From: Comamonadaceae bacterium | GTDB lineage: Bacteria > Pseudomonadota > Gammaproteobacteria > Burkholderiales > Burkholderiaceae_C | Length of the DNA stretch: 34,062 bases | Assembly (NCBI GenBank): GCA_027483085.1 | Contig: JAIXVK010000474.1 | Span: forward strand, 1-34,062 | Direction of reading: 5' to 3' | Shown here: one piece after another, positions 6,211-30,384 of the stretch | Layout: the number at the start of each line of letters is the position of its first letter | How positions within the stretch are numbered: the first letter of the stretch is position 1 | Position numbers and translations under genes: made by a program | Notes under the pieces: model-generated | What the model saw: the letters and a program-made list of their open reading frames with translations, nothing else | Databases searched by the model: none | Told to the model about the DNA's origin: nothing

Positions 6211-7752
6211 ATGTTTAAGTCATTACGTGGGGTCATGGCACTTTTAGGTGCCATAGGGGTTGCCGCAGCGCTGGCAATATCGGCACAGGGGTATGTGTTC
6301 ATAAACAAACTCGATACTTCCGCAAACAAGGTCTACGTTGCCAAGGATGTAGTGGCGGACATTCTCCCGCCGCCCATGTATCTGATTGAGATGCGGCTTG
6401 TGCTCTCCATGATGATGGATGGAAGCCTGTCGGCGACTGATGGGAAAAAACGTTTTGACGAACTGGCAGTCGAATACGCTCAGCGCGTCGAATATTGGAC
6501 AAAAGCCCCACCTTTCGGCTTGGAGGTCAAATTATTGGGGCCCCAGCATACGGCGGCCAAAGCCTTTATTGCCGCAGCGCGTATCCAGATAGTGGAGCCA
6601 GTGGTCTCAGGTCAGATGGATGTCGCCAATGGCAATCTCGCTGCGGTGCATAGCCTCTATATGGAACATCGCACGGGTGTGGATGCCACGGTAACGGAAG
6701 GTAATGCATTCGCCGCAGCCACGATGAAAGACTTTAACGACACGCACATCTTCAGCAATGGAGCCATGCTGGTTACTGCACTCGTGGCGGGGGTGATCGT
6801 GTTTGTGGTTTACCGCGTGGTACTGGCTAGCATCCAGAGACCTGTGCATGGCAGTACGCGGGCAGCCACGCTCATCGCAGCCGGAGACTTGGCTACGGTA
6901 GTTGAGTTGGACTTAGGGCGCACTGATAGTCTAGGTAATTTGCAAGATGCACTTCAGACTATGCGCACTGGCCTAAATGCTACGGTTTACTCCGTGCGAG
7001 AGGTTGCCCACAGCGTATCAGTGGCGAGTACAGAGATTGCCCAAGGTAATCACGACTTGTCTGCCCGGACTGAAAGCCAGGCGAGCGCTTTGCAAGAAAC
7101 TGCCGCCTCCATGGAAGAGTTGACTACCGTCGTGAACCAGAACGCCGAGTCCGCAGTGCAGGCCAATATCCTGGCAAAACAAGCGGCTGATGTTGCTCAG
7201 CGTGGCGGCGCTGCCGTTGAGCAGGTGGTGGAGACTATGCGTGGCATCAATGAGTCATCTCGCCAGATCGCGGGCATCGTGAGTGTGATTGAAGGTATTG
7301 CCTTTCAGACCAACATCCTGGCCTTGAATGCAGCAGTAGAAGCGGCAAGAGCGGGTGACCAAGGACGAGGTTTTGCCGTAGTGGCGTCAGAAGTACGCTC
7401 ACTGGCGGGGCGCAGTGCAGAAGCAGCCAAAGAGATCAAGATCTTGATTGGCGCCAGCGTGGAGCGAGTGAGCCATGGTTCCGCATTGGCAGATACAGCG
7501 GGTGTAACGATGTTGGATATGCTGCAAGCAACCCAGCGGGTGAGCAATATCCTTACCGAGATCAGCTCTGCCAGCCAAGAACAGTCCAGCGGAATCGCGC
7601 AAGTAAGAGATGCTGTCCTGCAAATGGACCAGGTCACGCAGCAAAACGCAGCAATTGTTGAAGAGATTGCAGCCGCAGCCAGCAGCCTCAAGACACAAGC
7701 TTCAGAACTGGTGAGCCAGATGGCACAGTTCTCACTCAGTGCAAAAAATTGA
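6211..7752 (+). CDS. Methyl-accepting chemotaxis protein
   Basis: A 513-residue membrane chemoreceptor. TM1 spans about residues 8-30, a four-helix-bundle type periplasmic sensor about 35-180, TM2 about 184-206, and a HAMP domain about 207-260. The signalling hairpin is intact, with the conserved tip [20 protein letters not shown] and [15 protein letters not shown] near residues 368-400, so it can engage CheA/CheW. The C-terminus ends SAKN, without the CheR/CheB-tethering NWETF-type pentapeptide. GAGG precedes the ATG. The ligand is unknown; the sensor contains [13 protein letters not shown], a wording seen in several betaproteobacterial receptors. It appears monocistronic. Confidence 0.96.
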
Positions 7753-8664: not shown

Positions 8665-9966
8665 TCACGCCCTTGCCACTGGCATGTCATCCCACCGGGT
8701 GGTGTACGCGGGGGTTCTCCGCAGTTGCTTCATGGACCATTCCCTTCGCACTCCATCCAAGCCTGCACTGGCAGTCAGGACGGTGCCTTTACCGAAGCGT
8801 TGGTTCAGGGTGTCCATGGCAACCATGAGCCGGGTTCGGTCTTCTTCTGAGTCACCGTCTTCCAGATCGAGCTCTGTCTGCTGGTTGGTATCGGGTTGTA
8901 GGTCCAGCAGCATGACGCCTGCCTTGGCGTAGTTGAACCCCGGCTTGAAGATTTGATTCAGACCTTGAAGGGCTGCTTTGACGATACAAGTGGTATCGGC
9001 GCTAGGGCGTCGCAATGGCGTGACCATGGAGCGGCTGTACTGCTGGTCTTTGCGGAATGGACTGGTACGGATGTAGACATAGACCTGTCCTGCAAGGCTG
9101 TGTTGCTTCCGGACTTTTTCAGCGGCTCGGGAGGCGAACTCTGTGACTGCTTCAGCTATGTGATGCTGTTCGGTGATAGGGCGACCGAAGGAGCGGGTGC
9201 ATGCAATTTCCTTCTTGGCAGCCGGAGAGTGCTCCAGATCGATACACGGAGTGCCCTGAAGCTCCCGAACGGTTCTCTCCAGCACCACGGACCACTTGCT
9301 TCGCACAGTGGCCGGGTCCAGCTTCATCAGATCCCGCACCGTGTGGATGCCTCCGGCTTGAAGCTGCTTGCTGATCTGCCGGCCCACACCCCAGACTTCG
9401 CTCACTGCGGTTGCTGCGTACACAGCATCACGCTCTGCTTGATCCAGAGCTGCCAGATTGCAGACTTGAGCGAGCTTGTCAGGGTAGACACCAGGCTTGC
9501 GTTCGGCGGTCTTGGCGATGTGATTAGCTAGCTTGGCCAGAGTTTTGGTAGGGCCGATACCGATTCCGCAGGGAATGCCTACCCACTGCAGGATGCGAGC
9601 CCGGATCTTGTGACTGCGCTCTACGAGATCACCCTTGACGCCACTGAGGTCGATGAAGGACTCATCGATGCTGTAAACCTCTTGGGCGGGACCAAGTCCA
9701 GTTGCGAGGCTCATCATCCGGTCGGACATGTCACCGTACAAAGCAAAGTTGGCAGACAGGACCACTAAGCCGGCATCCTCGGCCAGGTGCTTGATCTGGA
9801 ACCAGGGAGCTCCCATGGCGATGCCCAGCGCCTTGGCTTCGTTGCTACGGGCGATGGCGCATCCGTCGTTGTTGGACAGAACAACGACCGGCAGACCATT
9901 CAGGCTGGGGCGGAAGACCCGCTCACAGGACACATAGAAGTTGTTGCCGTCTACCAGGGCGTACAT
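8665..9966 (-). CDS. umuC: DNA polymerase V catalytic subunit UmuC (Y family)
   Basis: A 433-residue Y-family polymerase, close to the 422 residues of the E. coli protein. Metal-binding acids are D6 ([13 protein letters not shown]) and D101/E102 ([12 protein letters not shown]). The helix-hairpin-helix/thumb region follows at about 190-230, and the UmuC-type C-terminal part includes a probable beta-clamp motif QTELDL near residue 374. It carries out mutagenic translesion synthesis in complex with processed UmuD. It lies 20 bp after umuD and 3 bp before the nuclease gene, all on the minus strand under one SOS promoter. Confidence 0.97.
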
Positions 9967-9986
9967 GGAGTCACCAAGCCAATGAT

Positions 9987-10430
9987 TTAGGCGGAAGGAA
10001 ACTGCTTGATGCAGCTGGTGACCACGCCCCAGATTTCTATGGTCTGACCTTCCTTGGGCACTATGTCCGGATAGGTCGGGTTGGCGGCTTGAAGCTTGAC
10101 CCTTCCCGCACGCTGATAGAGCTGTTTGACGGTGAACTCACCATCCACCACAGCGACCACGATCATCTTGTGCCGTGGCTTGATGGCCTTGTCGATCACC
10201 AAAATGTCGTTGTTGAAGATCCCTGCATCTTGCATTGAATCCCCGGCAACCCGCTGCACATAGGTGGCTTGCGGGTGGATCACGAGTTCCTTATTCAAAT
10301 CAATGCGGGATGCACCCTCATCTTCAGCCGGGCTCGGAAATCCGGCTACCACTTTGTTGGACACCATGTCTAACAGGCAGGGGAGGGCAGTGATATGGAT
10401 CGGGGGACCAGCGGAGATGATGCTGTACAT
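9987..10430 (-). CDS. umuD: UmuD, self-cleaving subunit of polymerase V
   Basis: A 147-residue LexA-superfamily protein (peptidase S24). The cleavage site is A29-G30 in VVAGFPSP, where E. coli has CG; the catalytic pair is S65 (GDSM) and K102 (DGEFTVKQL). RecA-stimulated autocleavage gives UmuD', which joins UmuC. The start at 10430 gives family length and keeps the N-terminal arm; it lies inside the LexA box, has no Shine-Dalgarno sequence, and sits about 9 bp after a possible -10 (TATTAA), which suggests a leaderless or nearly leaderless mRNA. First gene of the umuD-umuC-nuclease operon. Confidence 0.95.
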
Positions 10431-11477: not shown

Positions 11478-11541
11478 TTTGGGCGGGGATAGCACTTCGT
11501 ATCTGGCACACGAATGCCAGGCGATGCACAAGGGGCAAAAA

Positions 11542-12006
11542 ATGAGTCAAGAAAATCTATTGGAGCCGGTGACCAATGCACGTGAGGCCGAAATGGCCAA
11601 GGTAGCGCAGCGTTGCATCATGGCGGCACTGGATCACTCGCGCGCGCCCAAAATCGTTTTGGTGGAAGAGGGCAGTGATCCAGAAGCTGCTCCCACGATC
11701 GAGCTCCCTCCACAAGCGTTGCGTGCCATCGCTGATTTGTTGGGACTGATGGGTCAGCAGCAGCCGGTCATGCTCATGCCGCAAAAACATGAACTGACGA
11801 CTCAAGAAGCGGCGAACTTTCTGAATGTTTCTAGGCCGCATGTGGTCAAGCTGATCGAGCAAGGCTCCCTGAAGCACCGCAAAGTAGGCCGGCATCGCCG
11901 CGTCGAGTTTCAAGAGCTCGTCGCCTTTCAGCAGCAACTGCAACAGCGTTCGGACGATGCCTTGCAGCGTTTGACAGATATCTCTCAGGAGCTTGGGTTG
12001 TACTGA
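11542..12006 (+). CDS. Excisionase-fold antitoxin of a PIN toxin
   Basis: A 154-residue protein from ATG 11542, chosen because AAGGGG precedes it; the longer reading from 11479 would start inside the promoter. Residues about 85-135 contain the excisionase/MerR-like helix-turn-helix ELTTQEAANFLNVSRPHVVK, LIEQGSLKHRKVGRHRRV. This DNA-binding fold is usual for antitoxins paired with PIN-domain toxins. The C-terminal tail (FQQQLQQRSDDALQRL) should bind and block the toxin. The stop overlaps the toxin ATG (TGATG), so the genes are translationally coupled. It likely binds the palindrome at 11452-11467. Confidence 0.86.
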   Translation: MSQENLLEPVTNAREAEMAKVAQRCIMAALDHSRAPKIVLVEEGSDPEAAPTIELPPQALRAIADLLGLMGQQQPVMLMPQKHELTTQEAANFLNVSRPHVVKLIEQGSLKHRKVGRHRRVEFQELVAFQQQLQQRSDDALQRLTDISQELGLY

Positions 12007-12581
12007 TGGCGGGGTCTTCGCGTTACACGGCAATATTGGATGCAAATGTTTTGTATCCCAATCTGCTGCGCGATATCTTGTTAAGTCTTGCTGCATCGGG
12101 TCTCTATCACGCCCGATGGAGTACGGAGATCAACGATGAGTGGACACGAAATCTGGCGCGCAACCGGCCTGATATCGAGTCTAAGATTCCGTTGTTGCTG
12201 GAGCAGGTCAATCGCTCCGTTCCGGATTGCTTGGTAGAAAACTACGCTTTCATGGTCGAGAGTCTGAAGCTACCGGATCCGGACGACAGGCACGTATTGG
12301 CGGCGGCCATTGTGGGACACGCTGACGCTATCGTGACTTCCAACCTCAAAGACTTCCCAGCTGATGTATTGGCTGAGCATGGAATTGAGCCGCAACACCC
12401 CGACGACTTCATCATGAATCAACTGGAGTTGCGCCCCTTTGAGGCCTTGGAAGTGTTCAAGCGGGTGAGGGCGAGACGAAGGAATCCGCCATGTACCGCT
12501 GCTGAGCTGATCGATATGGTCGAAAGAAGTGGCCTGCCACAAGCTGCTCAGTATTTGCGTGCGCGTGTTGGACTGATTTAG
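12006..12581 (+). CDS. PIN-domain toxin (VapC-like ribonuclease)
   Basis: A 191-residue protein. PIN signatures are ILDANVLYPNLLRD (first catalytic Asp, residue 12), the acidic WSTEINDEW (about 39-47), LPDPDDRHVLAAAI (about 88-101) and ADAIVTSNLKDFP (about 107-119). The four-acid site for Mg-dependent RNA cleavage is present. A C-terminal extension after about residue 140 is typical of this longer PIN subgroup. Expected target is tRNA or rRNA, but the sequence does not say which. Coupled to the antitoxin by a one-base overlap; the pair sits between repeat block 2 and unit B. Confidence 0.88.
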   Translation: MAGSSRYTAILDANVLYPNLLRDILLSLAASGLYHARWSTEINDEWTRNLARNRPDIESKIPLLLEQVNRSVPDCLVENYAFMVESLKLPDPDDRHVLAAAIVGHADAIVTSNLKDFPADVLAEHGIEPQHPDDFIMNQLELRPFEALEVFKRVRARRRNPPCTAAELIDMVERSGLPQAAQYLRARVGLI

Positions 12582-13863: not shown

Positions 13864-14636
13864 ACGACTTTTCCTTCAATCTCCGTGGGCACTGTGTACT
13901 GCTCAGAAATCTTCCATTTGGATGTGTTTTCGGCCCCCTCTTTTTTCCAATGATTGAACTTTGAACCGGGTTCGAATTGCGCGCGGTAGCGCTCTTGAAT
14001 AGCGGGGCTGTCAGTCAGTACTAACACTGTGTCAAATCTTGCGGGTGATTGTTTGGACGGCATCAGAGACAAGATGGTGGACAGCACAAATTGATCCAGA
14101 TGTCTGTCCCATTTGCTTGTAAGTTCAATTTCCACGGCAACACGTTTGCTATCCATGATCCACAGAATGTCGGGCTGTTTCATGTTCTTCACAGACATCA
14201 CTGCCAGTTCGCGTTCGGTCTGAAATGCAAAGTCTGGTCCAAGCATGTTTGCGGTGGCTTGCTGTCCCAAGGCGGAATGTCGAATATGGGTCTGTCGGAT
14301 CCGGAATGGATCTAGCTCGTACTTGATTAGTTTTTTTTGAAAACGCTCGACCTCTTGGAGACCTCGCTCAGTCAGGACGACTATTTTTTTTGGGATCCCT
14401 TTGATGCCGGCAGCTTCCGGGACCATGGTCCTGACGAGCTTGTTTTTCTCCAGCCTTGAAGTCAATCGGTTGTTTTTGGAGCCGCTGATTTGTTCTAAAA
14501 CGGTGGGCCAACTCCATCCCCATCTGTAAATCCACAGAAGGGCTTGTTGTTGTTTATGTTCTCCGATCTGTCGTGTGTTCAGGCCGGATTCGAGGCGAGT
14601 GCGCAGGGCGTCTTTGCTTTGCTTTGAAAAGGTCAT
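13839..14636 (-). CDS. Replic_Relax-like winged-helix/nuclease-like protein
   Basis: A 265-residue protein. Residues 20-100 form a winged helix (QQALLWIYRWGWSWPTVLEQ, then a wing ending VVLTERGLQEVERF). The C-terminal part contains QPDILWIMDSKRVAVEIELT, a PD-x9-VEIE pattern like the Replic_Relax family of plasmid replication-relaxation proteins, which occur with mobilization genes of plasmids and integrative elements. It probably binds DNA near the transfer or replication origin. It forms an operon with the lipoprotein gene and is read away from the hairpin array at 14828-15256. Family assignment is from motif wording only. Confidence 0.65.
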   Translation of the reverse strand: MTFSKQSKDALRTRLESGLNTRQIGEHKQQQALLWIYRWGWSWPTVLEQISGSKNNRLTSRLEKNKLVRTMVPEAAGIKGIPKKIVVLTERGLQEVERFQKKLIKYELDPFRIRQTHIRHSALGQQATANMLGPDFAFQTERELAVMSVKNMKQPDILWIMDSKRVAVEIELTSKWDRHLDQFVLSTILSLMPSKQSPARFDTVLVLTDSPAIQERYRAQFEPGSKFNHWKKEGAENTSKWKISEQYTVPTEIEGKVVCQLFDSF

Positions 14637-14827
14637 GCCGCGAAGTTACTGATTCATTTCAAAGTGGAGAAATTCAATTTCATGACGCTTGTTCTTAGCT
14701 GTAGCGAGGTAGCCACATCAGTTTTTCCATGGCAGTTTGTCGTGGTGCTAGGCATGGTGTGAGTTGGCACCATGTCTATCTGCCATATCTGTGTGTTACT
14801 ACAATGAGGGGGACGGAGGCCGGAGCG

Positions 14828-15256
14828 CACCCCCTCACGGGGGTGGTCGGCTAGGGCCGACTCCCTGCTCCTCAAGGGCTGGACGCCCTTGTCCTCCTAC
14901 CCTTCGCGCTGCTGTCGCAGCTCCAGCGGCCTGCGGCCTCGGGAGCCCCCCCGCTTGACAGCGGGTACCCAGCTTCCTGCAGGCTGAACTCGCGCCCTTC
15001 GGGACGGCTCATTCAGGTCAACGCCCTGGCGGGCTTTTGACTTGGCTACGCCAACCTTGGGAACCTGGGTACCCGTTGCCACGGGGGGGCGGAGCTCCGC
15101 TCCCCACTTGCCTGAACCGGCGCTGGGGCGCCTAAACCGCTGGGGCGGTTTTCAGGCCGCTGTCGTCGCTGCGCGACCCAGCTAAGCGGTTCCCCTCGGC
15201 TCGCAATTCCCGCCTGTCGGCGGTTGCGAGTCGTCCTGGCGGACGACCCTGACGGG
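14828..15256. repeat. Array of about a dozen GC-rich hairpins
   Basis: Perfect short stems with 3-5 nt loops follow one another: 14828-14845, 14846-14861, 14873-14891, 14908-14921, 14928-14938, 14950-14965, 15017-15041, 15119-15132, 15134-15151, 15165-15177, 15210-15223 inside 15200-15230, 15230-15247 and 15247-15256. Nearly all plus-strand loops begin with T and most read TGNC or TGGG. Some are nested: CCTGAA/TTCAGG (15111-15116/15151-15156) encloses two hairpins, giving a branched fold. No open frame here is credible. Possible structured RNA, transfer origin or replication origin. Confidence 0.75.
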
Positions 15257-15393
15257 CCTTTTGTTGGGCAGATCTGAGAATGAAGTTTCACTCAAATTCG
15301 TTCAGCATCCACGAGAAAACGCGGCGACTCCCATGCGTTGCAGTTATACGTTTCGATCGATAGACTCCGCTCGATTTTTAAATGGAGTCACAC

Positions 15394-15696
15394 ATGGATT
15401 TGGAAAAACGTATCGCTGATCTGGAGCAAAAACTCAAAGAAACAAAGGAGAAAGCTGCGAAAAAAGCTGCTGCCAAAAAGGCACAAGATCAAGCTGCTTT
15501 GAAAGCTGCCACCCAAAGAAAGCAAGCGCTGGCCGGTGAATTTCTACTGGATGGAGCGTTCGATGTTGGTGCTCTCGTTAACGTTAAAAATCAAAGATTT
15601 GATGCATGGCTCACTCACCCAGCCGATCGGAAGTTGTTTGGATTTCCTGTGGGATCCACGAACATATCGGGATCTCAAGGTGGAAATCATGCGTAA
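15394..15696 (+). CDS. Small basic coiled-coil protein, mobilization (TraD/MobC-like) candidate
   Basis: A 100-residue protein from ATG 15394; the GGAG at 15384-15387 serves as ribosome site for this ATG, so the ATG at 15382 is less likely. Residues 1-45 are a lysine/alanine-rich coiled coil (DLEKRIADLEQKLKETKEK). The C-terminal part ends DAWLTHPADRKLFGFP, resembling the 'L..p.DR.LFGL' ending of small TraD/MobC-type relaxosome accessory proteins. It would bind DNA at the transfer origin, perhaps the adjacent hairpin array. No relaxase gene is nearby, so the module may be a remnant or act in trans. It overlaps the next gene by 8 bp. Confidence 0.55.
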   Translation: MDLEKRIADLEQKLKETKEKAAKKAAAKKAQDQAALKAATQRKQALAGEFLLDGAFDVGALVNVKNQRFDAWLTHPADRKLFGFPVGSTNISGSQGGNHA

Positions 15697-15932: not shown

Positions 15933-16189
15933 CAACGTTCAACAGGTTGCCTTAATGTCTGCTTGAGGCTGGAAGTTATGCCGCACGAACGGCTGATCTT
16001 AGGGGCTTCTCCAAGATGCTGATCTACCCGTTTGCAGCTAATCATTTAGATGGCTGTCGTCGGTCACATAGGCATGTCCCAATAGTGCACATACGGGCCG
16101 ATATCGTTGCCTATAAGGAGCAGGTAGATAAACTTCCCCTTGTCCAGTTTTATTGCAAAATCCTTTGAAGAATTCGGGGAGCAGGAGCA

Positions 16190-16217
16190 TTGACAATGCT
16201 GAGTGGCGGGGTATACC
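16190..16217 (+). promoter_or_regulatory. Sigma70-type promoter of the Gabija operon
   Basis: TTGACA (16190-16195), 16-bp spacer, TATACC (16212-16217). Transcription would begin near 16224, leaving a leader of about 40 nt before the ATG at 16264. The perfect -35 box predicts constitutive expression and argues against the upstream start at 16153. Confidence 0.75.
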
Positions 16218-16263
16218 GGCGCGCTCAAAAGATCTCCCCGACAACACCTTGAGGGAGGACACA

Positions 16264-18669
16264 ATGAAGCTACAGGCCTACCGGCTGCAGAACTATCGCC
16301 GACTGCGCGACGTTGTCATCGAGCTCGATGACGAGATCTCCATATTTGTCGGCGCCAACAACAGCGGAAAAACCTCCGCTGTTCAAGGCCTGTACTCAAT
16401 GCTCCGTGGCGAAGCAAAGAAGTTTGAGCTCTTCGACTTCAGCGCTGCGCTGTGGGCTGAGATTGACGCTATTGGTAAGACTGCTCCAGGGGACCAGGAT
16501 GCACCCAAGAGATTGCCGTCGATCCTTTTGGACCTCTGGTTCCGCGTTAGTGAAGATGATCTCGCCACCGCAATGTCGCTCCTTCCCAGCACAGAGTGGG
16601 ACGGCAAGTGCGTCGGCATCCGTGTGGCGTTCGAGCCTCGTGATGCCTATGAACTCGTTCGAAACTTTCATGAACTGCATGAGAAAGCGAACAACGCGGC
16701 TATTGCACTGGCTGCCAAGCGTAAAAAAAGCATAGAGCCTGCTGCCGAGGGGGGTACGGATACGGTTGAGGAAATGGGCGAGGCCAGCGAGTACAAGCCC
16801 TGGCCGGAGAGCCTCACGAAGTACCTCACCAAAGAGTTGAGCAAGGAATACACCTTTCGCTACTACGTGCTCGATGAACGCTCTTTTGACGGCTACCTAA
16901 CAAAAGAAGTCGATTACGAGCCGCTGCCTCTTGGTAAGGAGCCGGGTGGTGCCGCTATCCTAAAGTCTCTAGTGCGAGTGGACTTTCTGCGAGCGCAGCG
17001 GCACCTCGATGATCCGGACGTCGGCAGCTCTGACCGTGCCGAAAGTCTGTCGAGACGACTGAGCCGTTTCTATCACCGTAACCTAGAGAAGCGTGGCGAC
17101 GACCATGCGGCGCTCAAAGCGCTCGATACCTCCGAGAAGGAGCTGAACATCCACCTTGAGGAGGTGTTTAGTGACACCCTCAAGCGGTTGACTAAGCTAG
17201 GCTATCCAGGCGTGAACAATCCCGAAATCGTGATTCGGGCGGCCCTGGATCCGACTACCGTTCTGGGGCAGGACGCCAGGGTCCACTATGTGATTCCGGG
17301 TGCAGCTAGCGCTCAACTCCCCGACAGCTACAACGGCCTGGGGTTCAAAAATCTGGTCTATATGGTGGTGGAACTGCTCGACCTGCACGAGCAGTGGAAG
17401 GCCGAGGAAGATAAGCGAGCGCCGCTACATTTGATGTTCATTGAAGAGCCTGAGGCGCATCTGCACGCACAGATACAGCAGGTCTTCATCAGGAACGTTT
17501 TGCGCCTCCTTGAGGAGCCCAATGACCACGCGACGCTTTTCCACACCCAGCTCGTTATTACAACGCACTCCCCACACATCCTTTATGAGCGCGGGTTTTC
17601 TCCCATACGGTACTTCCGACGTGTCAGCGACCAGGTTGACCATCACACCGATGTACGGAATCTATCGCTTTTCAAGACGGGCGAGGCCGACGCTCCTGCG
17701 CGCGAATTCCTGCAGCGCTATCTGAAGCTGACGCACTGCGATCTCTTCTTTTCCGATGCTGTCATCTTGGTTGAAGGCAACGTCGAGCGCCTGCTTTTGC
17801 CCGCCATGATCGAGTCAGCTGCCACGCGCCTGCGTTCTTCCTCGCTGACCATCCTTGAAGTCGGTGGCGCATTTGCACATCGGTTCCAGGAACTGATCGC
17901 CTTCGTTGGACTCACGACGCTCGTAATCACGGATCTAGACAGCGTGACGGTAAAGATGGATGCCGAGAAGGCTGCCGTGAAAGGCGCTGACACTGATGGC
18001 ACCATTGACGAAGATGACGAGGACAATGACCTCAAGCCCTTCGACCTCGAAGAAGACGACGAAACGGAACCGGGCCGAAAGAAGAAGACCAAGAAGCGCG
18101 GCAGCACCTGCCACGCGCATGTTGAAGACGCTGTCACATCCAACCAAACCCTTATTAGCTGGATCCCTAAGAAACGGTCCGTTGCAGAACTCTGGGAAGT
18201 GACAGCGGAGCAAAAGACGCTATCTCTGTCTAAGGGTTCTAGCGCTGAGGTTCGGGTTGCTTATCAGACCAAAGTTTCGGTAACGGTGGGTTCGGCGACC
18301 GCACAGCTCTGCGGCCGTACGCTTGAGGAGGCCTTTGGTCTTGAGAACGCAGATTGGTGTCAAGCTGAGGCCAATCGGTCGGTCGGCCTCAAGCTGAAGC
18401 GCGCACCCTGCAGCCCCGAAGAGCTGGCTGAGAAGTTGCATGACAGGGTGGTCGGAAAGAATTTCGACAAGACTCGCTTTGCCCTTGAAGTCCTCGCTAG
18501 TGGGCCACACAATGGCTGGAAAGTCCCCACTTACATCGTCGAAGGCTTGGTCTGGCTCGAAGCGAAAGTGGCCCATGAGCTTGAGGCGGATATTGCCATC
18601 GCCACCGAGATTGAGCCGACTGCGATCGGCGCTGCGGCGATCATTTCTGAAGCGGAGCAGACGGCATGA
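16264..18669 (+). CDS. gajA: GajA: OLD-family ATPase-TOPRIM endonuclease of a Gabija defence system
   Basis: An 801-residue protein; the start has GGGAGGA 6 bp upstream. The N-terminal ABC-type ATPase has Walker A GANNSGKTS (30-38), Walker B FIEEPEAHLHAQ (E394/E395) and the switch VITTHSPHILYERG (about 435-448). The TOPRIM nuclease follows with ILVEGNVERLLLP (E504) and the DxD pair in ITDLDS (D557/D559). In Gabija, GajA nicks phage DNA when nucleotides fall, together with GajB. It is longer than the well-known Bacillus GajA (about 580 aa); an acidic then basic insert at about 580-615 (EDDEDNDL... GRKKKTKKRG) lies inside the TOPRIM region. It overlaps gajB by ATGA. Confidence 0.88.
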   Translation: MKLQAYRLQNYRRLRDVVIELDDEISIFVGANNSGKTSAVQGLYSMLRGEAKKFELFDFSAALWAEIDAIGKTAPGDQDAPKRLPSILLDLWFRVSEDDLATAMSLLPSTEWDGKCVGIRVAFEPRDAYELVRNFHELHEKANNAAIALAAKRKKSIEPAAEGGTDTVEEMGEASEYKPWPESLTKYLTKELSKEYTFRYYVLDERSFDGYLTKEVDYEPLPLGKEPGGAAILKSLVRVDFLRAQRHLDDPDVGSSDRAESLSRRLSRFYHRNLEKRGDDHAALKALDTSEKELNIHLEEVFSDTLKRLTKLGYPGVNNPEIVIRAALDPTTVLGQDARVHYVIPGAASAQLPDSYNGLGFKNLVYMVVELLDLHEQWKAEEDKRAPLHLMFIEEPEAHLHAQIQQVFIRNVLRLLEEPNDHATLFHTQLVITTHSPHILYERGFSPIRYFRRVSDQVDHHTDVRNLSLFKTGEADAPAREFLQRYLKLTHCDLFFSDAVILVEGNVERLLLPAMIESAATRLRSSSLTILEVGGAFAHRFQELIAFVGLTTLVITDLDSVTVKMDAEKAAVKGADTDGTIDEDDEDNDLKPFDLEEDDETEPGRKKKTKKRGSTCHAHVEDAVTSNQTLISWIPKKRSVAELWEVTAEQKTLSLSKGSSAEVRVAYQTKVSVTVGSATAQLCGRTLEEAFGLENADWCQAEANRSVGLKLKRAPCSPEELAEKLHDRVVGKNFDKTRFALEVLASGPHNGWKVPTYIVEGLVWLEAKVAHELEADIAIATEIEPTAIGAAAIISEAEQTA

Positions 18670-20597
18670 GCAGGCGAGTCGATAGCCCGGACACCCAAGC
18701 CGACCGAGAGATCCATGCGTGCATTGCTGCGACGCCACCGCAGCCTTTCGTGGTTCGTGCCGGTGCAGGTTCCGGCAAAACCACATCTCTTATCAAGGCG
18801 TTGGACTGGGTGATGTCGGAACACGGGGCTACCATGAGGGCGAAGAAGCAGAAGGTCGCGTGCATCACCTACACAGACCTCGCTGCCAATGAAATCCTGG
18901 CGGACGTCAACGACGATCCATTGGTACATGTCTCGACTATCCACAGCTTCTATTGGACGATTGCCAAGACGTTTCAGGCGGATATCAAGGTCTGGTTGAA
19001 AAACGACATCCACAGGCGGATCTCCGAGCTGGAAGAAGAGTTCAAGAACTACGGCGTACGTGTTCGACAAACCACGCGCGACAGGAATAAGGCCGATCAG
19101 GCGCGCTATGTTCAGAATCTAGAAGCTCTTGGCGGCGTCAAGACGTTCAATTACGGCGTCGGAAGCGACTACGCGAAAGGCATCCTCGGCCATGAGGACA
19201 TCCTTCAGCTCGCCGACTTCCTGCTTCAAAACCGTCCTTTGTTCCGAAGAGTCGTTGCACTGAACTACCCGTTCGTTTTTATTGATGAGAGTCAAGACAC
19301 CTTCCCTGGTGTTGTGAAGTCGTTCAAGGATGTTGAAGCCCAGATGCAGGGCAAGTTTTGCCTCGGGTTTTTTGGCGACCCGATGCAGTCGATCTTCATG
19401 AGAGGCGCAGGGGACATTCCGCTCGAAGGCCATTGGCGAGCGATCACGAAGCCAGAGAATTTTCGCTGCGCCAGGCAGATTCTGGACATAGCCAACGCCG
19501 TGCGCGCTCAGGGCGACGGCATGGTACAGGTCCGCGGTTTGCACGAAAAGGTCGATGGAGTCCTCAAGCCGGTGGAAGGCTCGGCCCGGATGTTCGTCCT
19601 GCCGAACACGCAGAACAGAACCGAAACTCTGGCAAAAGTCCGAGCGTGGAGCGGAGCGACTAACAACGACCAGAGTTGGACTACACCAGATAACGCGGTC
19701 AAGATTCTTGTCATCGTACACCGCATGGCGGCAAACCGGCTCGGCTTCGGCGGCATCTACTCGGCGCTTAACGACAAAACGTCGGAGGCTATGAAGCAGG
19801 GGATGCAGGACGGCACCGGCTGGCCCGTTCGACCTTTCCTTAGTTTCGCGCTGCCGGTCACTGCAGCGATGAAGGCAGGCAATGAGTTCGCAGCGATGAA
19901 CCTGCTACGTGAGTTTAGCCCTCGCTTGGCACCTGCTGCACTGACCGGGCGCCGTGCTGCAGATGTGCTGTGCGGGCTGCGCGCAGCCGTTTTGAAGCTA
20001 GTCACCATGCTGGATGAGACGGAAACCACTGTTGGTGACATTGCCCTTCATCTCCGCGATGAGACCCTTTTCGAGTTCGACGAGCGCTATGCCCGCTTGC
20101 TTAGCTTGGTCGGAAGTCGTACCGATGCAGCTCAAGATACAGAGGCTGCCGATGCGGCTCCTACCGAGGTACGAACCTCGGACACAGCGATGCTCAAGTT
20201 TCTTAAGTGCTCTGCGAAAGAGCTACTGCCATACGAACGCTATGTATCAGAAGGCTCACCCTATGCCACACAGCATGGCGTGAAAGGCGCCCAGTTCGAG
20301 CGTGTCATCGTGGTGATGGATGAGGAGGAGAGCGAGTACCGAACCTACAACTACGAGCGTGTTTTCGCCAGTGCTGAGGCTCGTGCGGCAGATCGCGCAG
20401 GAGCCCAAGGCGGCGATGAAAACACCTGGAGTCGAACGATACGATTGCTATACGTCTGCTGCACTCGCGCTAAGCGAGGGCTAGTTTTAACGTTCTTTGT
20501 TGCCGACCCGGCGGCTACTATAGAAAACGTTGTGGCAAATGGAATACTTCCTCGGAGTGCAGTCTTCACACATGATGCGCTGACTGCAATGCCGTAG
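18666..20597 (+). CDS. gajB: GajB: UvrD/Rep-like superfamily 1 helicase of the Gabija system
   Basis: A 643-residue protein. SF1 motifs are in order: Walker A AGAGSGKTTSL (32-42), motif Ia region VACITYTDLAANEI, Walker B FIDESQD (D207-D211), motif III GDPMQSIF, motif V TQHGVKGAQFERVIVV and motif VI RLLYVCCTRAKRGL. In Gabija, GajB senses DNA ends or degradation products and activates GajA. The ATG overlaps the gajA stop (ATGA), so both are made from one mRNA. It is somewhat longer than the Bacillus GajB. The alternative name is a class 2 OLD nuclease-helicase pair, which is the same architecture. Confidence 0.88.
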   Translation: MSRRVDSPDTQADREIHACIAATPPQPFVVRAGAGSGKTTSLIKALDWVMSEHGATMRAKKQKVACITYTDLAANEILADVNDDPLVHVSTIHSFYWTIAKTFQADIKVWLKNDIHRRISELEEEFKNYGVRVRQTTRDRNKADQARYVQNLEALGGVKTFNYGVGSDYAKGILGHEDILQLADFLLQNRPLFRRVVALNYPFVFIDESQDTFPGVVKSFKDVEAQMQGKFCLGFFGDPMQSIFMRGAGDIPLEGHWRAITKPENFRCARQILDIANAVRAQGDGMVQVRGLHEKVDGVLKPVEGSARMFVLPNTQNRTETLAKVRAWSGATNNDQSWTTPDNAVKILVIVHRMAANRLGFGGIYSALNDKTSEAMKQGMQDGTGWPVRPFLSFALPVTAAMKAGNEFAAMNLLREFSPRLAPAALTGRRAADVLCGLRAAVLKLVTMLDETETTVGDIALHLRDETLFEFDERYARLLSLVGSRTDAAQDTEAADAAPTEVRTSDTAMLKFLKCSAKELLPYERYVSEGSPYATQHGVKGAQFERVIVVMDEEESEYRTYNYERVFASAEARAADRAGAQGGDENTWSRTIRLLYVCCTRAKRGLVLTFFVADPAATIENVVANGILPRSAVFTHDALTAMP

Positions 20598-21803: not shown

Positions 21804-23885
21804 ATGCAACCCATCATCGCTTTCTTCCAGTGGATATTCGTTCGCATTGGAATCTTCCTACTCGCCATCGTCCCCGCCTTGACCGTGCTGGGCATGACTG
21901 TCGAGTTCTTCAGTATTTGGTGGAAGTCTGACCTTCCCCTCACGTTTTCAGTCTTCTCGCGCTTGTCCAGTGAGGCCGGTTACGCCCTGTCGCTGCTGGC
22001 CATGGTTCTGATCAGCCATGCCCTGGAATACACAAACTCCTGGTGGGCCGTGCAGCAATACGGCACGCCCGCCATGCGCAGCGTGGTATTGCGCATGAGT
22101 TTTGTGTGCATCCAAACGGTTTCGCTCGCTGCTTTTGGAGGCGCTTTGGTCTTGTGGATGCTGTTTGCGACATCCACATCGTTCTCCGCATACCTGCTCC
22201 CCCTGCTTGTTCTGGCGGTGAGTGGTGTCGGTGCAGTGTGGGCCTGGTCGGACTACGGATACGGACTTGTCAAGCCGCAGAAAGTACGCATTGCCCATCC
22301 AAGCGCACCTCCAGCCGCGGGTCAAGCCGAGGAGGATCGCTTCGACAACGTCGCTCGCCGTCAAACATCCACGGTCACCTTCGGCGACATCATGGGGAAT
22401 AACGCCACCAAGGCCCGCCTCAAAGAATTCGGCAACGCGATCCTCCATGCCCAAGGGGGCGACCCCGCAAAACGAAACGGCATCATGCTGTTCGGCGAGC
22501 CCGGGAATGGCAAAACCGTGTTTGCAGAGGCGCTGGCCGGCGAACTCCGTCTTCCTATTCTCAAGCTGACCCACAGCGATGTCGCCAGCCGCTGGATTGG
22601 AGAGCGCACTGAAAAAATCGTGGCAGCGTTCCGCCAAGCCGAGGAGGCCGCGCCTTGCGTGCTGTTCATTGATGAAATCGACTCCTTCATCAGTGACCGA
22701 TCCAGTGGATCCCATCAAACCAAGGAAGACCTGGATGTCACCAATTCCCTGTTGACCCTGCTGGTGGACATCCGTCGGCACAAGGTGATCGTGATGGCGG
22801 CAACGAACTACATGGATCGCTTGGACGGCGCGGCAGTCCGCGAAGGGCGTTTTGACTTCAAGGTAGAGATTACCGCCCCTGATGAAGAAGCACGTCTTGG
22901 ACTGCTGATCACCGGGCTGCGCAAGAACCTGGGGGCGACCCAGACGGACATGGACACGCTCAAGAGCGTCGCCAAACGGTGGAATGGCTTCAGCGCCAAG
23001 CGGATTTTGGCAGTCACGGAGGAAATGCCGGCCTACCTGGCAGAACTCAAATCCTCTGGCAAAGCACCAACGCGCCTGGCTTTTGACGACTTCATGAACA
23101 CCCTGCGCAGGATCCAGGGGCGCAAAGGGGTGACACCGGAGAACGTGAAACCATTGCACGAGCTGATCCTGACGGAGTCCACCAAAGAGGCCTTGGAGAT
23201 GCTCTCAGGTCGGTTGACCGGGGTTGACGAGCTGGAACGACTGGGAGGCACGCTGCCGACCGGGGTGCTGTTCTACGGTCCACCGGGTACCGGTAAAACG
23301 GTAGCCGCCAAGGCCTTGGCCAAGGAAGCCGATTGGGCGTTTCTGATTTCCAGTGGCACCGACCTGGCACGGGACCCCAAGTCGCTGGACAAGCTTTACG
23401 CACAGGCCAAAGAGCTGCGCCCCTGCATCATCTTTGTGGACGAAGCCGATAACCTGATCCGGTCCCGGGAGACATCCGCCAATACGGAAGCCACCGACAA
23501 ACTGCTGACCTTGATGGATGGTGTGAACGATCGTGTCCGTGACGTGGTGTGGGTGGCTGCGACCAACTATCCCGAACAGATCGATGCGGCACTGCTACGC
23601 GGTGGCCGCTTTACGGAGAAAGTGGAGTTTGTCCGGCCGGATGAAACCCAATTGGCCACCCATATCGCGCAGTGGTTGGATACCCGCAAGGTACAGATGG
23701 CAGATACCTCGACACCGGCAGATATCGCCCGATGGATAGGGGATGAAAGCGTGGCCAACGTGGAAGCCATATTGCAATACGCGGTGAACCGGGCCATCTC
23801 CAAAATGAAATCACGAGGCACCACAGAGGTGCGCCTGACGCAAGAGGATGTACTGAAGGGCAAAGAAATGGTTTTGGGCGCATAA
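21804..23885 (+). CDS. Membrane-anchored tandem AAA+ ATPase
   Basis: A 693-residue protein. The first 150 residues are strongly hydrophobic, with about four spans (about 8-30, 58-76, 98-122, 128-148). Two AAA+ modules follow. Module 1: Walker A GEPGNGKT (231-238), Walker B LFIDEID (287-293), second-region arginine in EGRFDF. Module 2: Walker A GPPGTGKT (492-499), Walker B IFVDEAD (D546/E547), GGRFTEK. The tandem Cdc48-like arrangement on a membrane anchor is unlike FtsH, which has one AAA module and a protease; no HExxH motif is present. It is probably an unfoldase or remodelling machine at the membrane. Unknown small genes follow on the same strand. The start lacks a clear ribosome site. Confidence 0.85.
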   Translation: MQPIIAFFQWIFVRIGIFLLAIVPALTVLGMTVEFFSIWWKSDLPLTFSVFSRLSSEAGYALSLLAMVLISHALEYTNSWWAVQQYGTPAMRSVVLRMSFVCIQTVSLAAFGGALVLWMLFATSTSFSAYLLPLLVLAVSGVGAVWAWSDYGYGLVKPQKVRIAHPSAPPAAGQAEEDRFDNVARRQTSTVTFGDIMGNNATKARLKEFGNAILHAQGGDPAKRNGIMLFGEPGNGKTVFAEALAGELRLPILKLTHSDVASRWIGERTEKIVAAFRQAEEAAPCVLFIDEIDSFISDRSSGSHQTKEDLDVTNSLLTLLVDIRRHKVIVMAATNYMDRLDGAAVREGRFDFKVEITAPDEEARLGLLITGLRKNLGATQTDMDTLKSVAKRWNGFSAKRILAVTEEMPAYLAELKSSGKAPTRLAFDDFMNTLRRIQGRKGVTPENVKPLHELILTESTKEALEMLSGRLTGVDELERLGGTLPTGVLFYGPPGTGKTVAAKALAKEADWAFLISSGTDLARDPKSLDKLYAQAKELRPCIIFVDEADNLIRSRETSANTEATDKLLTLMDGVNDRVRDVVWVAATNYPEQIDAALLRGGRFTEKVEFVRPDETQLATHIAQWLDTRKVQMADTSTPADIARWIGDESVANVEAILQYAVNRAISKMKSRGTTEVRLTQEDVLKGKEMVLGA

Positions 23886-27136: not shown

Positions 27137-28480
27137 ATGGGACGTCGTTCACACTCCCGCGCACTTGGTCTCTGGGTGAATCATCACTTCGTCGGCACCT
27201 GGACGATGTCACCTCAAGGTGAGACTCTCCAATACGACAGTACCTGGTTAAGTGATCCGAGCGGGAGACCCCTGTCTTTGTCACTGCCCTTCACCCCCGG
27301 CAATCAGCCACACCGCGGAGCAGCAGTCGAAGCCTATTTTGAGAACCTGCTACCCGACAGCAAAGCGATCCGCGAGCGGGTGGCGCGGCGGTACAAAACC
27401 GACTCGACCGAAGCCTTTGATTTGCTCGAACAGATCGGGCGCGATTGTGTGGGTGCACTGCAACTCCTGCCTGCGGGAGAGAAGCCCAAAGCGAGTCTCA
27501 CCGCTGAAGGTACTCCGCTCTCGGAAGCGGAGGTGGCGCAACTGCTTCGCAGCGCGGTGGCTGCACCTGGTGTGCTGGGCCACACCGAAGACGAAGAGTT
27601 CCGGATTTCCATAGCCGGTGCTCAAGAAAAGACCGCTCTGTTAAGAATGAATGGCGAATGGTGCCGGCCACTCGGCGAGACCCCGACCACCCACATTTTC
27701 AAACTCCCCATGGGATTGGTCGGCAACCTCCAGTTTGACTTGCGCGATTCGGTCGAAAACGAGTGGTTGTGCGCATTGATATTGGAGGCGTTCGGATTAC
27801 CAGTTGCGGCTTGTGAACCTCTTCAATTTGAAGACATGAAGGTGCTCGCTGTCGAACGCTTCGATCGCCGGTGGATTCATGACAGTGGAAATAACGAACT
27901 CTTCCGGCTTCCGCAGGAAGACATGTGCCAGGCCACGGGGACACCGCCGCATCTGAAGTATGAAGCGGATGGCGGCCCCGGGGTGGACCGCATCATGAAA
28001 CTGTTGAACGGATCCTCCCATCGCGAACTGGACAAACGCACATTCTTCCAGGCCCAGATCCTGTTCTGGATGCTCTGCGCCACAGACGGGCATGCGAAGA
28101 ATTTCAGCCTGGCCATCGGGCCTCAAGGAAGCTACCGACTCACACCAGTCTATGACGTGCTGTCGGCCTACCCCTTACTTGGCGAAGGACCAGGAAAACT
28201 GTCCCCCTACAAGGCCAAGCTTGCGATGGCCGTAAGGGGCGCCAACCCACACTGGAAAATGCGCGAGATTCTGTTGCGACATTGGATCGCACTCGGAACC
28301 GGACATGGAGTCGTTACCGAGGATGGGCGCTCAGCAGAATTAGTGATCAATGACTTGGTTGATCAAACACCAAATGTCATTGAGGCAGTCCAAAAACGCT
28401 TGCCAGCAGGGTTTCCAAATCAGCTAGCAGATTGTGTTTTTAAGGGCTTACAGGAGGCTGCCAAAAAACTAAAAAGTTGA
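27137..28480 (+). CDS. hipA: HipA-like serine/threonine kinase toxin
   Basis: A 447-residue protein of normal HipA length. Features: P-loop-like region with ISIAGAQEKTALL (S158 aligns with the autophosphorylated S150 of E. coli HipA), the ATP-site lysine in HIFKLP (about 189), the kinase catalytic pair D317/N322 in CATDGHAKNFSL, and the metal Asp D340 in TPVYDVLSAYP, with the same 23-residue spacing as D309-D332 of E. coli. All catalytic residues are intact, so this should be an active toxin (glutamyl-tRNA synthetase is the E. coli target). Operon with hipB. Confidence 0.95.
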   Translation: MGRRSHSRALGLWVNHHFVGTWTMSPQGETLQYDSTWLSDPSGRPLSLSLPFTPGNQPHRGAAVEAYFENLLPDSKAIRERVARRYKTDSTEAFDLLEQIGRDCVGALQLLPAGEKPKASLTAEGTPLSEAEVAQLLRSAVAAPGVLGHTEDEEFRISIAGAQEKTALLRMNGEWCRPLGETPTTHIFKLPMGLVGNLQFDLRDSVENEWLCALILEAFGLPVAACEPLQFEDMKVLAVERFDRRWIHDSGNNELFRLPQEDMCQATGTPPHLKYEADGGPGVDRIMKLLNGSSHRELDKRTFFQAQILFWMLCATDGHAKNFSLAIGPQGSYRLTPVYDVLSAYPLLGEGPGKLSPYKAKLAMAVRGANPHWKMREILLRHWIALGTGHGVVTEDGRSAELVINDLVDQTPNVIEAVQKRLPAGFPNQLADCVFKGLQEAAKKLKS

Positions 28481-28811: not shown

Positions 28812-29396
28812 TTATGGTTTCCTGGAAACTGGGACAAGGACTCGGCTATGCAAGAACATAGCTTTTACCATCGCCACAGCAGCAGAAGTTCCAGCCAGAA
28901 CTAAACAATCAAGAGAATGACAGGAGCAACGAAAAATTCGCAAGGAATGTTGCAGGCTCTGCCATTGTTTGGCAGAATGAATTTGTTCAGGGCTCATGCC
29001 CAGTCCGCAGCTCAACTCTAAGTTTGAGACTGCCTTCACCCGAGCAATACAGCTCAACTTAGGTGGGAAGTTTCCTTTCCCAAGTAGCGCCTTCTCGGCG
29101 TCATCCAAGCATATAGCGCCAGACGCTGTATGCAACGTCTCTACTCGTCCAAATATTTGAATTAACCAGTCGTGTTTTTGCACATCTGTGATTCGTTCAT
29201 TTTGCATTTTTTTGACGTAGTGACGCACTTCATCAAGCCCGCTTTCTCCCTTGGGGGATGGCACAACATGTCTGAATGACGCGGAATTTATATGAACGAA
29301 CAAATAGCAAATGACCACTGGCTGCCGCGGCAGCCCACGCAACGTTACCCACGTCAGTGGGAAGGTCCCCAGCGGGGAAATCTTTGTTGCCCACAC
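28812..29396 (-). CDS. Hypothetical protein divergent from the integrase (start uncertain)
   Basis: An open frame of 194 residues. From about residue 34 it reads like protein (SGLDEVRHYVKKMQNERITD, then DWLIQIFGRVETLHTASGAI) with a possible membrane segment at the end (DCLVLAGTSAAVAMVKAMFL). The first 30 residues correspond to palindromic DNA upstream of the integrase and are doubtful; the ATG at 29207 (residue 64) is an alternative. No ribosome site supports any start. Family not recognised. Confidence 0.4.
   Translation of the reverse strand: MWATKISPLGTFPLTWVTLRGLPRQPVVICYLFVHINSASFRHVVPSPKGESGLDEVRHYVKKMQNERITDVQKHDWLIQIFGRVETLHTASGAICLDDAEKALLGKGNFPPKLSCIARVKAVSNLELSCGLGMSPEQIHSAKQWQSLQHSLRIFRCSCHSLDCLVLAGTSAAVAMVKAMFLHSRVLVPVSRKP
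29320..29374. repeat. Cluster of palindromes upstream of the integrase
   Basis: The 16-bp perfect palindrome GGCTGCCGCGGCAGCC (29320-29335) is followed by CCCAC-GTCA-GTGGG and CCCC-AGC-GGGG within 40 bp. Possible attachment or regulatory site of the adjacent recombinase. Confidence 0.6.
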
Positions 29397-29487
29397 CTCA
29401 CCAAAGCCAGGAGCTCGGGGGTGGTCGTTTGGCAGTTTTCTGATGCGAACTGTCAGCTTGCCCGAGCCTCACATGGAGTCATTCAAC

Positions 29488-30384
29488 ATGTCGAAAAAAA
29501 CTGATAAGCAAGTACGTGACGCCACCCGCAATGCGGGTGGCTCCACGCTAACAAAAATAAATCGCAATGCTGGGCTGAGCAAGTTCTTTGTGGTCATGCA
29601 AAAGGTACTCAACCTTCAGGTCAATTCATTTCAAAATTTGAAAGCAAGTCAGCTCAAAGCCTATGTCGAGCATTTGAAAAATGAGGGCTTAACATACCGA
29701 TCTATTCAAAACCAATTAGCACACATCCGCCAAGCTCTGAGAGCTGTCAATAGAGATCATTTTGCTGGCAGCCAAGATATTTCAAACGCGGCCATGGGAG
29801 TCGCCGGAGCTAGCAGGGATGGCACGCACCGACCTCTCACTGAACTGCAATATAAGGCCGTCGTGGCGGCCACTAGAGTTGACAAACCAGGAGCTGCTGC
29901 CTGTATGACATTGCAGCGTGAGTTGGGGCTGCGTGCTCGCGAAGCAATTCAATGTGTAGAGAGTCTGGGAGCGTGGGAAAAAGCACTCATTGGCGAGATG
30001 CAATGTCAAATTTTGCATGGCACAAAGGGAGGTCGTGGACGCTGGACTGGACCTGTTGACATAAGCCGCGCATTAGCGGCTGTGCGCGATGCGATTGCCA
30101 TTTCTCACGCGCAGGGTGGATACCTCATCGTGTCAAAAAATTTGCAGTCGGCAGCTCGGGCATATGGCCGAGCATGTGAAAAAGTAGGGATGAAAGCGGA
30201 GCACGCCAGCCATTCATTGAGGTGCATGTATGCCCAAGATCGCTTTGTTCAGCATTTGGAACGCTTGGGCTCCAGAAACGAGGCGCTGGCAGCTACTAGT
30301 TTAGACCTTGGCCATGGAGATGGCAGAGGTACTTACATAGCACAGGTCTACTTGAAAAATTCACCACAGCTAAGCTGTGGCTGA
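29488..30384 (+). CDS. Tyrosine recombinase (integrase-domain protein)
   Basis: A 298-residue protein from ATG 29488; the GGAG in the upstream ATGGAGTCA serves as ribosome site. A SAM-like N-terminal domain (about 30-110, KASQLKAYVEHLKNEGLTYR) precedes the catalytic domain: Arg I in ELGLRAREAI (R149), a basic residue near K180, HxxR as H242-SLR245, H276 in DLGHGDGR and the nucleophile Y288 (or Y283) in TYIAQVYL. All catalytic positions are present. The style matches the 'integrase domain-containing protein' group of betaproteobacterial genomic islands. A small H-NS-N-terminus-like gene follows after 28 bp. Confidence 0.85.
   Translation: MSKKTDKQVRDATRNAGGSTLTKINRNAGLSKFFVVMQKVLNLQVNSFQNLKASQLKAYVEHLKNEGLTYRSIQNQLAHIRQALRAVNRDHFAGSQDISNAAMGVAGASRDGTHRPLTELQYKAVVAATRVDKPGAAACMTLQRELGLRAREAIQCVESLGAWEKALIGEMQCQILHGTKGGRGRWTGPVDISRALAAVRDAIAISHAQGGYLIVSKNLQSAARAYGRACEKVGMKAEHASHSLRCMYAQDRFVQHLERLGSRNEALAATSLDLGHGDGRGTYIAQVYLKNSPQLSCG
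29521..29541. repeat. Perfect hairpin inside the integrase reading frame
   Basis: GCCACCCGC-AAT-GCGGGTGGC, 9-bp stem, covers codons 12-18 of the integrase. It would put a stable structure close to the start codon of the mRNA. Confidence 0.6.

Follow-up and report, generated by a model that had tools for sequence, protein, structure and literature searches.

A conserved array of hairpins beside a probable MOBC-like relaxase gene in bacterial mobile elements

Between two open reading frames of the stretch of DNA analysed here (the window; 34,062 nucleotides, contig C269 of a source genome in 671 contigs that is 76.7% complete) lies a dense run of GC-rich hairpins. This raises the question of what such a run is for and whether it works as DNA or as RNA. 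The earlier note on this DNA had considered a structured RNA, a transfer origin or a single-strand initiation site.

Fold of the array in the window

Folded at minimum energy, the minus strand of 14796-15275 forms 16 hairpins between 14828 and 15258 (Table 1). The stems comprise at least 4 bp in 15 of them and the closing pair is C-G on the minus strand in all 16. The segment contains 13 non-overlapping perfect Watson-Crick hairpins of at least 5 bp, whereas 500 dinucleotide shuffles averaged 3.0 and never had more than 8. The fold stability of 14800-15270 against shuffles corresponds to z = -8.1 for the minus and z = -4.9 for the plus strand. The array noted earlier is thus real and far beyond chance. 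The description of its plus-strand loops as almost uniformly T-initial and of TGNC/TGGG-like classes was borne out as well, with 15 of the 16 starting with T (TGAC, TGGC, TGTC, TGC, TGGG and others). In the 3' domain, an outer stem surrounds a GTCCA-loop hairpin (14873-14891) and an inner stem, and the latter carries a CCTA-loop hairpin (14846-14861) followed by a hairpin at 14828-14845.

Table 1. Positions of the array, its parts and the adjoining features in the window
Feature	Position	Strand	Description or basis
Whole structured element	14812..15262	-	5'->3' from 15262 down to 14812; fold z, homologous arrays
5' domain	15119..15258	-	six hairpins, from fold
Hairpins of 5' domain (loop)	15245-15258 (GTCA); 15233-15244 (GCCA); 15210-15223 (GACA); 15165-15177 (GCA); 15134-15151 (CCCA); 15119-15132 (CCCA)
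Recurrent purine motif of 5' domain	15187..15197	-	GAGGGGAACCG in window; mostly GGGGGAGCCG elsewhere (by eye)
Hairpin 5' of central stem	15091..15103	-	GGGGGGC-NNN-GCCCC type in relatives (by eye)
Central long-range stem, left arm	15060..15076	-	includes GGGTACCC
Variable inner branch of central stem	14994..15054	-	hairpins 15042-15054, 15023-15034, 14994-15005
Central long-range stem, right arm	14961..14977	-	inverted repeat and fold
Linker hairpins	14908..14938	-	14928-14938 and 14908-14921
Five-stem 3' domain	14812..14900	-	model match, covariation, fold
Imperfect inverted repeat	14729..14786	none	20-nt arms, 80%; between array and P0001
P0001	13839..14636	-	265 aa; MOBC/Replic_Relax-like relaxase candidate
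P0002	13183..13863	-	226 aa; second gene of P0001 operon
Small gene on far side of array	15382-15696	+	Pfam: none above cut-off

Several candidate identities were rejected. An 81-aa open reading frame at 15046-15291 falls within stems, and we saw no support for coding. An integron attC array, a REP/BIME island and a CsrA-sponge RNA do not fit, because the stem sequences differ from one another, the long-range pairing is conserved and a series of GGA loops is absent. A group II intron was discarded, given the lack of an Rfam match. No family of Rfam 15 reached its gathering score in the window, and permissive Rfam searches with the window and six loci returned only matches below gathering scores.

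The adjoining gene and related arrays

P0001 starts 159 nt past the end of the array segment at 14796, on the same (minus) strand. Nine aligned members of its family share H120, Q125, D156, E169, E171 and K175. Of these, D156, E169, E171 and K175 are invariant in all nine and are candidate catalytic residues of the PD-(D/E)XK type. One of the nine aligned members matches PF13814 (5.8e-4), and a relative at locus L077 reaches 31.3 bits against a cut-off of 25.3. As far as the accessible parts of the sources go, CONJscan assigns PF13814 (Replic_Relax) to MobC (PMC5357655), and MOBC relaxases are related to PD-(D/E)XK nucleases and to restriction endonucleases, whereas most plasmids have relaxases of the HUH kind (PMC12857230). 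Six enterobacterial plasmid records with P0001 relatives of about 24-26% identity are typed MOBC. The Sulfuriferula, Thiothrix and Sulfuricella plasmids are typed as non-mobilizable in PLSDB, although the first two carry both array and gene. An AlphaFold model of P0001 (two sequences) had a mean pLDDT of 47, too poor for fold comparison, and a PDB sequence search with the nine-member family gave weak matches, to one unrelated protein only. A Pfam search at E <= 1 gave no match for P0001 itself, and for this reason we call it, judging from its family's residues and domain matches, a probable rather than a proven MOBC-like relaxase.

The earlier note had placed the array between two probable mobilization genes. 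This applies to one side: P0001 is relaxase-like, whereas the gene across the array has no Pfam family above cut-off. The proposed link to mobilization is backed by the gene neighbourhood, with only one of the two flanking genes being probably a mobilization gene. P0002 shows by eye a coiled coil and a lipoprotein-like start; a Pfam search with it returned nothing above cut-off, and its weak match to LmuB in PADLOC (2.8e-6) is perhaps owed to the coiled coil. The inverted repeat between array and P0001 is a candidate relaxase or regulator site, and no common counterpart of it was found in the array-gene spacers of the other loci.

A collection scan revealed a P0001 relative of 46% identity in Burkholderia sp. 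TSV86. Its immediate upstream region holds another GC-rich hairpin array, different from that of the window yet as dense. In the family of the window, P0001 relatives are present in seven of 399 genomes (own included), six of which have an array upstream; by eye, none was found at the weak seventh relative (G443). At class level, six of 369 genomes matched P0001, namely the own one, G758 and four distant ones (G605, G762, G795, G866). By eye, the four distant relatives have no array. In G758 an array is present with its motifs on the opposite strand, the array being inverted relative to the relaxase-like gene. Among plasmids, 54 records contain a P0001 match, and of those read, the Sulfuriferula and Thiothrix plasmids carry an array and the Sulfuricella plasmid does not. 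In the enterobacterial records L016 and L082-L084, the array folds better on the strand opposite the relaxase-like gene and sits between this gene and a large divergent gene, which is annotated as TraM-recognition protein in L082, as triK in L083 and L084 and as hypothetical, with no Pfam match, in L016. In these plasmids the interval from the large divergent gene to the array holds direct repeats of AGTTTACTCYGCGTAAACT (L016 about 6985-7095, L082 about 1540-1632), each a short palindrome and a possible regulator or relaxosome site. Transfer genes found near arrays include TraG_N in L004 (in the Burkholderia locus, about 0.9 kb past the far side of the array), T4SS coupling-protein genes in L081 and L047, a coupling-protein gene in G758 and a TraM-recognition-annotated gene beside the array in an IncU-typed plasmid.

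Searching plasmids by blastn gave no match for the window array, the array-like locus L037 or L043 (the G257 array), and blastn of the array against 198 relatives yielded only the own genome and two short matches in coding-looking sequence. In viral contigs, two DNA patterns returned 4 and 5 stretches with no array among them (by eye), and two protein queries found no relative.

R1 is a covariance model of the 3' domain that is blind to the gene and was built from five training sequences including the window, which it matches at 14900-14812. The Burkholderia array, which is outside the training set, was found at E 2.9e-6. The 3' domain was recognised in the window, L004, L007, L008, L009 and L014, and missed in three of the nine gene-linked arrays (L006 (L046), L012, L013); that of the inverted-type arrays was unrecognised at E <= 0.01. 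Searching the order with R1 at E <= 0.01 gave matches in eight of 270 genomes, own included, and eight new loci in seven genomes. Five of these eight loci are directly followed, on the same strand, by a P0001-family gene; of these five genes, one is short, probably cut by an insertion, and one runs off its contig. At L081, the array and a T4SS coupling-protein gene point away from each other, and 2.7 kb away there is a weak relaxase-family match (1.9e-7); the L080 array stands before a gene with a sub-threshold PF13814 match; and the neighbour gene of the L074 array is unassigned. Genome G1080 has the array plus relaxase-like gene twice, in diverged copies (L076, L078); in one of them the gene is short, an insertion element having probably cut it.

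A search with the loop pattern matched nine of 399 genomes of the family, compared with five for the reversed pattern. Four of the nine are known gene-linked arrays and five are array-like by eye and gene-less, with R1 values of 1.1e-4 to 0.04. R1 scores a coding-looking viral stretch (L024) at E 0.013, and matches near 0.01 (L038, L040) were for this reason not trusted alone. The array-like loci L037, L039 and L038 precede a gene (L037 5647-7557, L039 5607-7430, L038 8567-9171, the last cut) whose product of about 607 aa shows a P-loop by eye. Neither the L039 copy nor the L038 fragment matched a Pfam family, and this P-loop protein represents a second partner family of array-like loci. L039 also encodes a reverse transcriptase (RVT_1, 14593-15495), some 7 kb from the array-like locus.

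For comparison we assembled 19 arrays, consisting of the window, eight found via the P0001 gene and ten found via R1 or the loop pattern; L038 and L039 (close to L037), L040, L050 (partial) and the inverted-type L016, L018 and L082-L084 were excluded. The array lies directly upstream of a relaxase-like gene in most arrays studied: in 14 of the 19 (the window, the eight gene-found ones and five found by gene-blind R1) a P0001-family gene is located just downstream on the same strand, with an estimated start 13-297 nt past the array in the 13 cases with an assigned start. No P0001-family gene was found near the arrays and array-like loci L074, L037-L040 and L041. The array sequences align nowhere except in short motifs, and shape persists while sequence is nearly gone. 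By eye, the GGGGGGC-type hairpin and the central stem are common to nine window-type arrays, and a GGGGGAGCCG-like motif was seen in the 5' domain of most arrays read, twice in several. The longest long-range stem exceeds that of all 15 shuffles in 16 of the 19 arrays and does not do so in L076, L078 and L080. The core of the central stem varies by element (GGCTACC/GGTAGCC, GGCCACC/GGTGGCC, GGCAACC/GGTTGCC or GGGTACCC, with further variants in L041, L074, L075, L077, L079 and L081). The array is one conserved element, located on the minus strand in the window.

Covariation, strand choice and the molecule

Covariation in homologues, the check that the earlier note had named, was strongly positive for the 3' domain in two alignments. 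Among five 3' domains, both sides had changed at 20 of 32 pairs with none of 500 shuffles performing as well, and the covariation score was 0.562, as compared with 0.217 for shuffles and 0.072-0.134 when slid. With 20 R1 matches, in an alignment fitted to the model, both-side changes occurred at 28 of 31 pairs (151 cells; 0 of 500 shuffles). A structure derived de novo from a MAFFT alignment of 12 R1 matches, the ends of which were set by the model, had both-side changes at 13 of 17 pairs. Between the two G1080 copies, which are 90.6% identical, ten pairs of the joint fold differ, seven by double Watson-Crick replacement and three by a wobble change. None is broken, but a joint fold of two sequences is built so as to avoid broken pairs; of the 147 unpaired sites, 28 have changed. 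Their complementary strand gives seven double and four wobble changes, and this comparison thus demonstrates pairing and not strand. L037 and L038 differ by four double and seven wobble changes (complement: four and four). Among L082, L083 and L084, wobble changes are not biased towards the motif strand (9 vs 14 and 12 vs 18 in two divergent pairs). One strand, the minus strand in the window, keeps a fixed secondary structure as its sequence turns over. Covariation combined with a strand-specific fold, as a structured non-coding RNA would show, is present, and folded single-stranded DNA predicts the same. That the array consists of GC-rich palindromes brought together by chance, or is an island of decayed repeats devoid of function, is hardly credible: the high GC content of the stretch is all that speaks for it, and the shuffles, the covariation and the compensated changes between recent copies contradict it.

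The same strand had the lower energy in all 19 arrays with RNA and DNA parameters alike. The GTCCA and CCTA loops are ascertainment-biased in the ten arrays found by R1 or loop pattern, and the other nine (window plus eight), chosen without any loop or structure search, were counted separately. In these nine, loops of the types C(GNA)G, C(CNNA)G, C(GNNNA)G and C(GNYA)G close 56 of 102 hairpins on the favoured strand versus 5 of 103 on the other, with about 1.2 in shuffles. Since every one of the 19 arrays favours one strand and the loop classes are strand-specific, the main form is unlikely to be a double-stranded DNA cruciform.

RNase P RNA and tmRNA genes from the order of the window served as controls; the searches had hits in 60 of 60 and 41 of 41 genomes, respectively, and 29 of 30 RNase P and 24 of 30 tmRNA fetched loci were used, those with cut flanks being dropped. 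Strand asymmetry is as consistent in the arrays (19/19) as in RNase P (28/29) and tmRNA (24/24). The mean absolute asymmetry with DNA and RNA parameters, respectively, is -16.1 and -20.6 for the arrays, -8.4 and -16.7 for RNase P and -4.0 and -15.0 for tmRNA. That it is kept with DNA energies counts for single-stranded DNA; relative to total energy, however, the asymmetry of RNase P persists under DNA parameters as well (12.2% to 12.4%; arrays 8.4% to 11.3%). GNRA loops close 3 of 150 stems in the arrays, 36 of 101 in RNase P and 0 of 48 in tmRNA, and the last figure, obtained by the same count, makes their scarcity compatible with an RNA. Sigma-70-like sites of at least 8/12 were located upstream of 3 of 19 arrays (reverse control 4/19), 13 of 29 RNase P genes and 15 of 24 tmRNA genes, in a scan that covers the sigma-70-like type only and misses 25 of 53 true RNA genes at this threshold. 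A scan of 14600-15500 that left out promoters of mismatched-stem type found no promoter-like site on either strand. Terminators follow 1 of 19 arrays, 5 of 29 RNase P and 12 of 24 tmRNA genes. Unpaired bases in the arrays are 39% A, 32% G and 10% T (RNase P: 44% A, 26% G). G.T compared with A.C in stems amounts to 21 to 8 in the arrays, 15 to 9 in RNase P and 13 to 3 in tmRNA, and the 3' domain has 14 G.U vs 10 A.C cells. Loops of the C(GNA)G type are exceptionally stable in DNA.

The repeated presence of relaxase-like, coupling-protein and TraG genes next to the arrays leads us strongly to infer a role of the array in conjugative mobilization. The location beside relaxase or coupling-protein genes is that of an oriT, with the relaxase itself being only probable. 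A folded single strand, be it DNA or RNA, probably serves mobilization, and the evidence as to which is mixed. We lean slightly towards the transferred DNA strand, because there is no promoter excess nearby, terminators and GNRA loops are few, the loops are of DNA type and the orientation flips between elements. In our preferred, still tentative explanation, the array would be a folding module of the transfer (oriT) region in a family of mobile elements with MOBC/Replic_Relax-like relaxases, working as transferred single-stranded DNA. The strand would fold when unwound at nicking or as single-stranded DNA entering the recipient, and its hairpin loops would then be binding points of the relaxosome or single-strand starts for priming or transcription. 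Several findings count against this reading: R1 misses the 3' domain in three gene-linked arrays and, at E <= 0.01, in the inverted type; some relatives of the gene stand without an array and some arrays without a P0001-family gene; L076, L078 and L080 lack a long-range stem above shuffles; wobble changes among L082-L084 do not favour the motif strand; P0001 has no Pfam match; two plasmids with both array and gene are typed non-mobilizable; and the purine-rich unpaired bases and the wobble asymmetry of stems resemble those of RNase P. A more specific version, a single-stranded DNA machine of 450-550 nt with a fixed multi-branch fold, whose C(G..A)G and C(C..A)G loops are read by relaxosome or recipient proteins, is somewhat doubtful.

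A possible, only slightly less favoured alternative is a large trans-acting non-coding RNA (about 450-550 nt) made from the minus strand and needed for, or regulating, mobilization. To our knowledge, the large covarying structures known so far are nearly all RNAs, and the control-like consistency of strand asymmetry, the purine-rich unpaired bases, a wobble asymmetry in stems like that of RNase P and a terminator-like hairpin with T-run after the L074 array agree with it, as does the precedent of the SGI1 sRNA at a comparable position (PMC9299015, accessible part). Promoter signal no higher than in the reverse control, a terminator in a single array, few GNRA tetraloops and the small excess of G.U over A.C cells in the 3' domain argue against it. 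Were the array instead a cis-acting mRNA leader, that is the 5' UTR of the relaxase-like operon controlling its translation or decay, one would understand why array and gene are co-stranded in 14 of 14 gene-linked window-type arrays and why the gene starts so soon after the array. The inverted arrays of the enterobacterial plasmids and G758, the arrays that precede other genes and the lack of excess of promoter-like sites upstream make this unlikely. A single-strand origin, or an origin from which the excised element replicates, that plays no part in transfer would suit L037-L039, which adjoin the gene for the 607-aa protein and no P0001-family gene, and the array of plasmid pTunz3, which has a RepB gene at a distance of 3 kb; given that the relaxase-like gene is the dominant neighbour and T4SS genes recur, we consider such an origin very unlikely.

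Known systems and the surrounding island

Our searches suggest that the array, a probable folded element of transfer regions, is without earlier description in open-licence PMC literature or Rfam; in that literature we found no description of the element, of its gene family or of large conserved structures at relaxases. For comparison we take GOLLD, ROOL, OLE and HEARO/omega RNA as the large structured RNAs of Rfam, which the array resembles in size and in a multi-hairpin architecture kept by covariation, while matching no Rfam family at its gathering score. According to the accessible part of the source, transfer of SGI1 requires a self-encoded sRNA, the sgm-sRNA, encoded between the relaxase gene mpsA and oriT and yielding derivatives of about 330-450 bases (PMC9299015). 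Like the array, which adjoins a probable relaxase gene, it is a non-coding element beside a relaxase gene, in its case on a mobilizable island; unlike the array, it has been demonstrated as an RNA and supplied in trans, and its relaxase is called atypical (PMC9299015). No such hairpin array is described for it in that part of the source, the comparison being one of descriptions, unaligned (PMC9299015). Frpo and ssi sequences, folded single-stranded DNA of transferred elements like the form proposed for the array, lie in leading regions, and Frpo mimics a -35/-10 duplex promoter (PMC11541004, PMC7736820). By contrast, no sigma-70-like site was found in the region of the array, which has some 16 hairpins in a branched arrangement and keeps its loops conserved. 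The oriTs of MOBC systems (CloDF13 MobC, pAD1 TraX) likewise lie beside relaxase-like and sometimes coupling-protein genes in what could be consulted of PMC12857230. A MOBC oriT with a conserved fold of 450 nt did not appear in the literature searched, and no nic site was identified for the array. R1 found nothing in the CloDF13 record, in the annotation of which MobC is unrecognisable.

A large conserved fold beside a probable MOBC-type relaxase offers a concrete, deletable target. R1 provides a marker that goes by shape more than by sequence and would indicate transfer regions in elements typed as non-mobilizable. If the array acts as single-stranded DNA, functional structure in such DNA would extend far beyond attC sites and Frpo, and we know of no larger functional single-stranded DNA fold conserved by covariation. 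Such a machine, if real, would occur on chromosomal islands as well as environmental plasmids, and enterobacterial plasmids would carry a related, inverted form. If the array acts as RNA, it would represent large RNAs of a class not listed so far and connected with horizontal transfer, similar to the SGI1 sRNA but present in many elements.

The window is likely a mobile island, because it contains a UmuD/UmuC pair (homologues at 8665-10430, -) and a phage-type integrase (Integrase_1 type, 29311-30384, +), the latter probably being the integrase of the island. umuDC is also present near the P0001 relative on the Sulfuricella plasmid. Beside the array lies a complete-looking Gabija pair (16153-20597, +; GajA 979 bits, GajB 857 bits), followed by a double AAA ATPase (21804-23885, +) that is matched by IetA models of PADLOC (best E 1.9e-51). 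In addition, the window encodes an HTH_17 protein followed by a PIN-domain protein (11479-12581, +), a possible toxin-antitoxin pair, and a HipA-like toxin kinase (27137-28480, +).
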